A stretch of DNA of 64,000 nucleotides, taken from NCBI RefSeq assembly GCF_000215975.1, contig NC_015682.1, positions 186,001 through 250,000 of the forward strand. Direction: 5' to 3'. This document shows, in pieces, positions 32,095 through 34,539 of this stretch. The notes beneath the pieces were generated by a model. The model was not told the DNA's origin and did not search any database. It saw only the letters and a program-made list of their open reading frames with translations. The translations under genes and the position numbers were made by a program. This DNA comes from Thermodesulfobacterium geofontis OPF15. Lineage in GTDB: Bacteria; Desulfobacterota; Thermodesulfobacteria; Thermodesulfobacteriales; Thermodesulfobacteriaceae. Numbering within the stretch: the stretch's first letter is position 1; every line of letters starts with the position of its first letter.

Positions 32095-33484
32095 GTTGCT
32101 TATACTATTTGCAAGCTCTTTTATCCTTTTTGGATGCAGTCAAGGGGTAAAGCTTGATGCACCAGAGCTTGACCTGCCAAAGGAGATTGCTTCTAAAAGT
32201 CTAAAGGGGGAGGCAGAAAAAAAGAAGGAGCTATTGCCGGACAAGTTCTGGGAGGCTTACAATGACCCTATCTTAAACGAGCTTGTGGAAAAAGCTCTAC
32301 GGCAGAATGAAGATATCCTTATCGCTGAGGCAAGGATAGAGCAAACTTTAGCCATGGTCCGCTATGTGGGAGCAGATAGGTTCCCCTATCTTGGTTATGG
32401 GGCAAGTGTAACCCGGCAGAGAACCTCTGAGGAAACTATAGGTCCAAAACCTGGCTCTACCTACACCACCTATCAGCTCAACCTAAATGTTCAGTATGAG
32501 CTTGACCTTTTTGGCAGAATCAGCTCTCAGGAAAAGGCAAGCCTTTATCGTTATCTTTCTACCCTTCATGGTCGGGACGCCGTTAAGCTTTCGGTGATAA
32601 GCCTTGTCATGAACGCATACTTTGACCTTTTGGCAAAGGAAAGGATGGTGGAAGTAGCTGAGAGACAGCTTCAAACTCTGAAAGAAATATACAACCTTAG
32701 GGAAAAGGAATTTGAGCTTGGTTTGGCAAACATTCAAGTTGTTCTTCAGGCAAGGTCTGAGGTAGAAGCCATAGAACAAACGCTAAAATCCTTAAAGCAG
32801 GAAAGGGAGCTTCTAAGAAACCTCTTAGCTCTCCTTGTTGGTGAGAGCCCAGCTAAGATGTTTGAAAGGAGCGCCAAAACTTCCCTTGATTACCCTCAGG
32901 CTTTAAGGCTCCCTCCTCTTTTGCTTTCTGAGGTCTTAGAAAGAAGACCGGACATTCAATCGGCTTTAGAAGAACTAAAGGCTTCTGCCTATGATGTAGC
33001 TTCAGCCAAAGCCGAATACTTCCCAAGGATCACCCTTACTTCAGCCCTTGGTTATCAGAGCATAGAGCTTGCTAATCTTTTCAAAGGAGGTGCAACCTTC
33101 TGGAATATAGCGGGTTTAATTACCGGTCCCATCCTTGATTTTGGGAAGAGAGAAAGCAAGGTTAAGCTTGCTCAAGCAAAGCAGAGGGAAGCTCTCTTAA
33201 ACTATGTTAAAACTGTTAGAACTGCCTTTAAAGAGGTGCAGGATTCTCTAATTCAGCTTGAGATGCTTGAAGGAAGGATAAAGGACTTAGAACAAAGGGT
33301 AAAGACGCTTGAGGAGCTATACAAAGTTTCTGAGCTTCGTTACAAAGAGGGCTTATCGAGATATTTAGAAGTTTTAGACAGTGAAAGGGCTTTGCTTTCC
33401 GCAAAGCTTGATTTAGAAAGACTAAAGGCAGACTACTACAAATCCCAGGTCTACTTTATAAAAGCTATAGGGGGCGGTTTTTAA
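32087..33484 (+). CDS. Outer-membrane efflux channel lipoprotein (OprM/NodT type)
   Basis: A 465-residue TolC-family protein with a lipobox SFILFGC (Cys about residue 17). Two related halves carry the long coiled-coil hairpins: FWEAYNDPILNELVEKALRQN at the start and LRLPPLLLSEVLERRPDIQSAL at the second repeat, the latter a hallmark of the NodT group. It completes the tripartite pump and overlaps the pump gene by eight bases. Its 3' end is overlapped by a small minus-strand frame at 33465-33689. Confidence 0.93.
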   Translation: MRKLLILFASSFILFGCSQGVKLDAPELDLPKEIASKSLKGEAEKKKELLPDKFWEAYNDPILNELVEKALRQNEDILIAEARIEQTLAMVRYVGADRFPYLGYGASVTRQRTSEETIGPKPGSTYTTYQLNLNVQYELDLFGRISSQEKASLYRYLSTLHGRDAVKLSVISLVMNAYFDLLAKERMVEVAERQLQTLKEIYNLREKEFELGLANIQVVLQARSEVEAIEQTLKSLKQERELLRNLLALLVGESPAKMFERSAKTSLDYPQALRLPPLLLSEVLERRPDIQSALEELKASAYDVASAKAEYFPRITLTSALGYQSIELANLFKGGATFWNIAGLITGPILDFGKRESKVKLAQAKQREALLNYVKTVRTAFKEVQDSLIQLEMLEGRIKDLEQRVKTLEELYKVSELRYKEGLSRYLEVLDSERALLSAKLDLERLKADYYKSQVYFIKAIGGGF

Positions 33485-33689
33485 AAATGAAGACTTCCTT
33501 TAAATCCGACTCAAAACCTTCTAAAACTAAAGATTTTAAGACCTTGTCAACCTTGTATTCCTGATAGAGCTTAAAACCTTCGTCTATCAAAGTATAGACC
33601 TCTAAGGTTTTTTTTGTCTTGGTTAACAATCCAGTATTCTTTAACTCCGTAAATAAGATAAATATTTGTTTCTCTCTAATTGCCCTCAT
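33465..33689 (-). CDS. Small hypothetical protein at the right end of the efflux island
   Basis: A 74-residue basic frame starting MRAIREKQIFILF, with a balanced mix of hydrophobic and charged residues. It overlaps the 3' end of the channel gene by 20 bases in antisense. No family is recognised, and no ribosome site is evident. It may be the truncated end of another gene carried by the island or a chance frame. Confidence 0.35.
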   Translation of the reverse strand: MRAIREKQIFILFTELKNTGLLTKTKKTLEVYTLIDEGFKLYQEYKVDKVLKSLVLEGFESDLKEVFIFKNRPL

Positions 33690-33918: not shown

Positions 33919-33954
33919 AGAAAATGTTAAGAAAGGATTTTTTGTCTTTTAGAT

Positions 33955-34028
33955 CGGGACGTAGCGCAGCTTGGAAGCGCACCCGCTTGGGGTGTGGGGG
34001 GTCGGCGGTTCAAATCCGCCCGTCCCGA
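33955..34028 (+). tRNA. tRNA-Pro (anticodon GGG)
   Basis: A complete cloverleaf: acceptor CGGGACG pairs with CGTCCCG at 34021-34027 with A as discriminator. The anticodon stem is CCCGC/GTGGG with loop TTGGGGT, giving anticodon GGG for CCC/CCU codons. The T arm contains GGTTCAAAT. No CCA is encoded. It lies between the efflux island and the speD-like gene and may share a transcript with the latter, since only a T run separates them. Confidence 0.95.
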
Positions 34029-34072
34029 TTTTTTTATTGGTAAAATTTTTTATTTTCTAAAATCCAATAAAG

Positions 34073-34100
34073 CCAGGCACCTTGCCTGGGGGAGGTGAGC
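34073..34100 (+). promoter_or_regulatory. Hairpin next to the ribosome site of the speD-like gene
   Basis: CCAGGCA (34073-34079) and TGCCTGG (34083-34089) form a 7-bp hairpin just upstream of a GGGGGAGGTGA ribosome site. In addition CACCT (34078-34082) can pair with AGGTG (34093-34097) in the ribosome site, so two mutually exclusive folds exist, one exposing and one hiding the site. This could be a translational switch responding to polyamines or temperature; no known riboswitch class was recognised. Confidence 0.4.
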
Positions 34101-34101
34101 T

Positions 34102-34539
34102 ATGAGAGCACTTGAACCCATTCGTCAAGTGGAAAGATTTGAAATTACTCCTACCCAGCAAGGTGCACTTAAACGAAATATATGGAGCTATCACCTAATT
34201 GTAGAGTTTTGGGATTCTCCCTTTGAGCTTTTAGCAAAAGCTAAAATTGTAGAAAGGGCTCTTAAATCTGCACTTACTAACTCTAATCTTAATAACAATA
34301 TAAGAACCATAAGCTACCAATTCCAACCCTTTGGAGTTTCAGCACAAGCAAGTTCTGGGAGAGCTAATGTCTATATTCATACCTGGCCCGAAAATGGATA
34401 CTCTGCAGTTGATATAATAGCTGATACAAAAGAAGAAGCTTATAAAATCCTTGAAAATTTACAAAAAGCCCTTAAACCTAAAAATGTGTATGTAGCTGAA
34501 ATATCCAGAGGGATTTCTGAAGACTGGGGTGAAACTTGA
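34102..34539 (+). CDS. S-adenosylmethionine decarboxylase-like protein lacking the pyruvoyl serine
   Basis: A 145-residue SpeD-fold protein. YHLIVEFW, QPFGVS (residues 75-80), YIHTWPENGYSAVD (91-104) and the ALKPKNVYVAEISRG tail align well with bacterial AdoMet decarboxylase, whose pyruvoyl group decarboxylates AdoMet for spermidine synthesis. But the proenzyme cleavage motif, Glu-Ser-His five residues before HTWPE, reads Arg-Ala-Asn (87-89) here, so the Ser that becomes pyruvoyl is Ala88. The conserved active-site Cys after the VD segment is Asp108; His93 is kept. As written it should not self-process. It is directly upstream of speE, with the stop overlapping the speE start. It may be a regulatory paralogue or have another function. 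A GGGGGAGG site fixes the start. Confidence 0.8.
   Translation: MRALEPIRQVERFEITPTQQGALKRNIWSYHLIVEFWDSPFELLAKAKIVERALKSALTNSNLNNNIRTISYQFQPFGVSAQASSGRANVYIHTWPENGYSAVDIIADTKEEAYKILENLQKALKPKNVYVAEISRGISEDWGET

Follow-up and report, generated by a model that had tools for sequence, protein, structure and literature searches.

A speE-coupled SpeD homologue without its pyruvoyl serine in Thermodesulfobacterium geofontis, a candidate non-catalytic subunit of a two-gene AdoMet decarboxylase

Results

A pyruvoyl-less speD gene overlaps speE

The window analysed here is a stretch of 64,000 nucleotides from Thermodesulfobacterium geofontis OPF15, whose genome is a single contig (C1) of 1,634,377 bases. 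Downstream of a tRNA-Pro gene, which has no part in the mechanism discussed below, the window carries a gene for a homologue of SpeD (AdoMet decarboxylase, AdoMetDC) that has lost its pyruvoyl serine, followed by speE (Table 1). We refer to this homologue and its like as dead SpeD, and to the intact paralogue described further on as live SpeD. The dead gene has a strong ribosome site, and its stop codon shares four letters with the TTG start of speE, an arrangement of translational coupling. The speE product has both spermidine-synthase domains, and the two genes are separate, overlapping reading frames, in contrast to the fused domains of animal spermine synthase.

Table 1. Features of the dead speD locus and of the distant live speD gene (window coordinates unless marked C1)
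Feature	Position	Strand	Basis or remark
tRNA-Pro (GGG)	33954..34029	+	ARAGORN; directly upstream neighbour
Shine-Dalgarno of dead speD, GGAGGTGAG	34091..34099	+	read from the sequence
dead speD (pyruvoyl-less SpeD paralogue), 145 aa, ATG start	34102..34539	+	Pfam, alignment, structure model
TTGA overlap of dead speD stop and speE TTG start	34536..34539	+	sequence
speE, spermidine synthase (aminopropyltransferase), 274 aa	34536..35360	+	PF01564, 162 bits; PF17284, 34 bits
live speD	C1:814404-814859		A-E-S-H and F-S-C intact; directly 5' of the agmatinase gene (speB)

An inverted repeat, CCAGGC-ACCTT-GCCTGG, stands immediately 5' of the Shine-Dalgarno sequence (window 34073-34089) and is a possible hairpin for translational control. 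Further upstream, a short reading frame of 74 aa (window 33465-33689, minus strand) lies between an efflux operon and the tRNA.

Dead SpeD matches the Pfam AdoMet_dc family (PF02675) with 83.5 bits (cut-off 25) over the full length of the profile (1-107 of 107). Against the NCBI equivalog for the active enzyme, TIGR03330, it reaches 66.4, under the cut-off of 75.65. The structure model (pLDDT 80.7) has T. maritima SpeD as its top match (1tlu, Z 16.9), and its fold is one half-sandwich of class 1b, without the class 2 fold and its dimerisation domain.

The pyruvoyl side is lost and the partner-facing side is kept

In the alignment with the T. maritima enzyme, R87-A88-N89 of dead SpeD fall on Glu62-Ser63-His64 and D108 falls on the catalytic Cys83. 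This agrees with the initial annotation, which had read Arg-Ala-Asn in place of Glu-Ser-His and Asp108 in place of the Cys; its view that no pyruvoyl should form at the usual site stands as well, with R87-A88 at Glu62-Ser63. The same alignment places F74, S80, H93 and E97 on Phe49, Ser55, His68 and Glu72, all four of which are kept.

The dead type has 60 relatives, spread over eleven family groups of the phylum. Across the 60 dead sequences the Phe49, Ser55, His68 and Glu72 positions are 100% invariant, and 20 of the 113 domain columns are invariant. Glu62 is retained in 5%, and no sequence has a Cys at the Cys83 position (0/60; one carries a Cys within a few residues of it). The Ser63 position is Ala in 58% and Ser in 11% (7 sequences); these seven, T. 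thermophilum included, all lack the Cys, even the one among them that has Glu-Ser-His, the dead protein of L034. Arg-Ala-Asn is one state among many at this site, alongside GDAH, EEAH, EEVH, PGAH, GQAH, FTH, TIH, DNLQ and others. A sequencing error is ruled out by these related states and by the closest relative, a metagenome-assembled genome named T. geofontis (L042/L098), whose protein is 90% identical and also has R-A-N.

Eukaryotic AdoMetDC consists of two class 1b halves that are fused and stacked by their beta-sheet faces, the human enzyme being such a fusion with one pyruvoyl (PMC5201418). The residues named as binding AdoMet in human AdoMetDC are Phe7, Leu65, Glu67, Phe223 and Glu247 (PMC3686867, PMC5201418). 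The spacing of F74-S80-H93-E97 in dead SpeD (6-13-4) and of 223-229-243-247 in the human protein (6-14-4) agrees within one residue. We take Phe7, Leu65 and Glu67 to lie in the half that holds the pyruvoyl Ser68, and Phe223 and Glu247 to lie in the other one, to which Ser229 and His243 also belong. Judged by this equivalence with the eukaryotic enzyme, from which, rather than from coordinates, the assignment of residues across the bacterial dimer is taken, dead SpeD has lost the side of its own pyruvoyl (Glu62, Ser63, Cys83) and kept the side that faces a partner, like the uncleaved half of eukaryotic AdoMetDC.

The dead type is a single lineage under purifying selection

A tree built from 120 SpeD proteins, whose few columns leave the deep branching order unsure, places the dead type in a single clade (support 100/100) and the live type in another (likewise 100/100). 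Thus, catalysis seems to have been lost a single time, with the gene kept afterwards. In close pairs dN/dS is 0.04-0.20 for the dead type and 0.02-0.07 for the live type. The dead gene is under purifying selection, as its preserved length and coupling had led the initial annotation to propose, and these values together with the 20 invariant columns rule out a pseudogene in decay. Within the order, the dead type has a mean column identity of 60% and 31 invariant columns. A scan of named genomes with the dead alignment brought out a second dead lineage, mostly labelled Deltaproteobacteria, that is likewise without the Ser and the Cys and overlaps speE.

Whether such variants always precede speE had been raised at the outset, and the answer is divided: 56 of the 60 dead genes overlap speE by the identical TTGA, but in four lineages the dead gene does not adjoin speE, and in one of these (G194) no SpeE was found. 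The junction typical of the overlap, ACTTGACT (ACCTGACT in L276), persists after the dead speD stop in L276, L278, L279 and L280, where speE does not follow, as it might after a removal or relocation of speE. In two of these loci the following co-directional gene (L279 1006-1794, L280 1135-1923) resembles, by eye, a DUF62-like AdoMet hydrolase.

An intact SpeD accompanies the dead type

A second SpeD with Glu-Ser-His, which had been suggested as a thing to look for, is present in the genome. The two genes, near C1:814404 (live) and C1:220102 (dead), are about 594 kb apart, and live and dead genes stand at separate places in all loci read. Live SpeD is the only SpeD of this genome able to carry a pyruvoyl. 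It passes the AdoMetDC equivalog TIGR03330 with 84.7 (cut-off 75.65), and it keeps the pyruvoyl-side residues as well as Ser55 and His68. Among 32 live-type sequences the mean column identity is 84%, and the Ser, His and Cys are always present. In the alignment, the Phe49 position of the live type is occupied by Tyr (98%). Since the AdoMetDC of T. brucei also has Tyr at the equivalent position (PMC5201418), we make no claim that AdoMet binding is impossible at the live face.

Both types, with at least one copy each and the live one next to speB, occur in all 24 genomes at least 97% complete, this one included, in a set of 41 from the order (the present genome plus 40 relatives). In the second dead lineage, which was found independently of the live gene, the live type is present in 9 of 10 genomes. 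Twelve more genomes outside the order have both genes; these were chosen for having the live gene and so are no test of co-occurrence.

Polyamine genes and a candidate for arginine decarboxylation

Three users of decarboxylated AdoMet are encoded in the genome: speE, a second SpeE-like gene and BpsA. In the related T. thermophilum, which accumulates spermine/thermospermine, the two aminopropyltransferases are active (PMC11107197), and just two SpeDs, one dead and one live, are present in its genome (G001). A profile search of our genome for canonical arginine or ornithine decarboxylases (ADC/ODC) gave no match to PF01862, matches to PF01276 below the cut-off only, and LysA as the only PF02784 protein (548 bits); on this basis a hidden canonical ADC/ODC was rejected. 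The second PF02784 proteins of relatives were considered as SpeA and rejected, as they are mostly decarboxylases of the FslC/LysA type; these 447-aa PLP enzymes with an N-terminal YxKP motif (L222-L226, L228) occur in several relatives and are absent from this genome.

In a survey of the phylum, the live type was found in 89 of 394 genomes, 62 of which, outside the order, were tested for SpeD and SpeE. These 62, together with the reading of many genes, gave three kinds of genome. In the first, the live type is the sole SpeD and no open frame of the size usual for SpeE (about 280-350 aa) matches PF01564 above the cut-off. Eleven genomes that are at least 96% complete and whose live-type SpeD has an identity of 57% or more are of this kind (G046, G088, G103, G163, G224, G244, G263, G301, G318, G386, G402); speB is the next gene in three (G103, G163, G402), and the check for PF02784 within this kind covered G046 and G057. 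In the second, the live type comes as an additional copy beside another SpeD with an intact cleavage Ser, which in several families lies directly 5' of speE. In the third, live and dead types occur together, with a SpeE in nearly all; it comprises the Thermodesulfobacteriales (three families) and eight family groups (f31, f50, f57, f63, f67, f79, f84, f99).

Li and colleagues found pyruvoyl arginine and ornithine decarboxylases by looking for a SpeD unaccompanied by SpeE, or for a second SpeD where a genome lacks ADC/ODC (PMC10407285). Because no known ADC/ODC is present here and at least 11 near-complete genomes have the live type but no SpeE, live SpeD alone may decarboxylate arginine and is a candidate arginine decarboxylase. 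It has the traits by which SpeDA enzymes are recognised, namely intact pyruvoyl residues, linkage to speB and a genome without canonical ADC/ODC, and it carries the Pro marker used for SpeDA (PMC10407285), which is not decisive. Two points speak against this assignment. Live SpeD passes the AdoMetDC equivalog cut-off, and in the genome G299 (L311, L323) the sole SpeD is of the live type and a SpeE-like protein of 337 aa is also encoded, which suggests that the live type alone has AdoMetDC activity there.

Discussion

The initial annotation had likened dead SpeD to the trypanosome prozyme and wondered about a similar bacterial pair. With a second, intact SpeD in the same genome, selection on the dead gene and its coupling to speE, a prozyme-like bacterial pair is now the leading idea, although one of another build than the trypanosome example. 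We propose, with a probability of about 0.5, that dead SpeD is a non-catalytic subunit that pairs with live SpeD into the AdoMet decarboxylase supplying SpeE; both the complex and its activity are predicted from sequence. The loss of own-side residues combined with the retention of partner-side residues is the main reason to favour an active site shared with live SpeD. Dead SpeD, folded as a class 1b half-sandwich, would stack beta-sheet face to beta-sheet face on the pyruvoyl-bearing SpeD encoded at the distant speD-speB locus. The live subunit would provide the pyruvoyl, the Glu and the Cys, and the dead subunit the opposite wall, with F74 stacking on the adenine, S80 and H93 serving in processing and catalysis, and E97 facing the ribose. 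Decarboxylated AdoMet made by the pair would then go to the co-translated SpeE. Such a pairing would explain how these thermophiles make long and branched polyamines with just one SpeD able to form a pyruvoyl and in the absence of any known ADC/ODC.

If the live type is an arginine decarboxylase, the dead subunit would turn it to AdoMet. We could speculate, more tentatively than for the pairing itself, that a switch of partner sets the substrate: the live homodimer would decarboxylate arginine for agmatinase, and the pair of live and dead subunits, with AdoMet specificity conferred by the latter, would be the AdoMet decarboxylase of the cell. Some observations weigh against pairing. The live homodimer could be a complete AdoMetDC, with its pyruvoyl side and Ser55/His68 kept and the equivalog passed. 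Moreover, the live and dead loci are separate, four lineages have no speE link, and seven dead proteins keep the Ser. It is G299 and the equivalog score of live SpeD that hold the pairing at even odds and the partner switch well below them.

The strongest rival, a serious one that the initial annotation had not considered, is that dead SpeD acts as a scaffold, a structural subunit of SpeE on a separate chain. The TTGA overlap in 56 of 60 genes would suit such a role, and so would the fold: once bacterial SpeDs are set aside, the model fits best on human spermine synthase, at its N-terminal domain (3c6k, Z 10.4, 105 residues, 19% identity). That animal domain, class 1b-like and dead, precedes an aminopropyltransferase; it has lost its AdoMetDC activity yet is essential for dimer formation (PMC12803844). 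It is fused there, whereas dead SpeD is encoded by a separate gene, and a profile search found no sequence match between the two. We consider the scaffold less likely than the pairing, given that SpeE has an oligomerisation domain of its own (PF17284), that each of the two T. thermophilum aminopropyltransferases, expressed by itself in E. coli, yielded spermidine (PMC11107197), and that the dead gene is apart from speE in four lineages. A pure scaffold would also have no need of S80 and H93, residues of processing and catalysis that are conserved at 100%.

Somewhat less probable again is an allosteric activator in the strict sense of the prozyme, in which the live site would be complete and the dead paralogue would stimulate or stabilise it, for example in an edge-to-edge dimer. 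The mechanism is known within the same enzyme family: the prozyme is a dead AdoMetDC paralogue of trypanosomatids that acts allosterically (PMC5201418). As there, a paralogue without the pyruvoyl Ser is kept here alongside a live one; live and dead genes co-occur in these bacteria, and live SpeD has all its catalytic residues. However, the prozyme is a two-half, class 2 protein that has lost ligand-binding residues, as has its Leishmania relative with respect to the residues facing AdoMet (PMC3686867), and it uses a eukaryotic dimerisation domain that is absent from bacterial enzymes (PMC5201418). Dead SpeD, in contrast, is a bacterial class 1b half of 145 aa, co-translated with speE, whose AdoMet-facing residues are invariant. 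Pure allostery would leave that invariance unexplained; the kept residues and the class 1b half-sandwich are thus better accounted for by completion of a shared site.

A sensor role is improbable. Here dead SpeD would bind AdoMet or decarboxylated AdoMet by its kept half-site and regulate SpeE or SpeD without forming a catalytic pair. The AdoMet-contacting Phe and Glu are retained, and the hydrolase-like gene follows dead speD in two lineages unlinked to speE, but a dead homodimer would lack half of the ligand site, the Glu62 and Cys83 positions being lost. Finally, it is very doubtful that dead SpeD still cleaves itself and works as a decarboxylase: seven of 60 relatives have a Ser at the cleavage position, but neither there nor close by is any Ser, Thr or Cys conserved, all 60 lack the acid Cys at its position and 95% lack Glu62, and S84/S85, which the initial annotation had offered as another cleavage site, is replaced by T-F, N-L, N-S, S-D or S-P in relatives and has to be dropped.

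Close parallels to the proposed live-dead pair are the C-terminal half of class 2 enzymes and the bacterial fusions of a degraded SpeD to SpeDC in Victivallis vadensis and Desulfobacter (PMC10407285). In both, a half without a cleavage site completes the site of the pyruvoyl half and the F/S/H/E face is kept. They differ in having one chain with the live half, whereas here the genes are separate and the live half is of the speB-linked type. SpeDA and SpeDC resemble the present case in that two SpeD homologues, one linked to speB, occur in a genome without canonical ADC/ODC; this fits the live partner, but both keep the pyruvoyl Ser that dead SpeD is without.

The prozyme was described in 2016 as restricted to trypanosomatids, and degraded SpeD halves of bacteria as fusions only. 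Our literature search, with most subscription journals outside its scope, found no report of a free-standing dead SpeD in bacteria. Present in many families of the phylum and with half of its active site fully kept, it offers a living example of a step that could have led to the asymmetric enzyme of eukaryotes. The dead and live SpeDs are also a test case for a change of substrate by exchange of partner. Should the partner switch be true, the pair would represent, as two natural genes, what eukaryotes have as the fused class 2 enzyme.

Other SpeD homologues of the phylum depart from both types. Those of L244-L253, L255 and L256 (f9 and f53 genomes) mostly have A-Q-S-H, with Glu62 changed to Gln, and Thr at Ser55; they lie away from speE and are possibly SpeDC of the ornithine type. 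One of them, L248, differs in kind, having K-E-S-Y and adjoining speE. A homologue in L074 (3019-3423), with V-E-S-G and Q-L-H-T-L-S-E, overlaps an unrelated gene; its genome has no SpeE. In the SpeD-like proteins of L064, L274 and L286, I-E-T-S...I-S-A-H-F replaces the usual motif.
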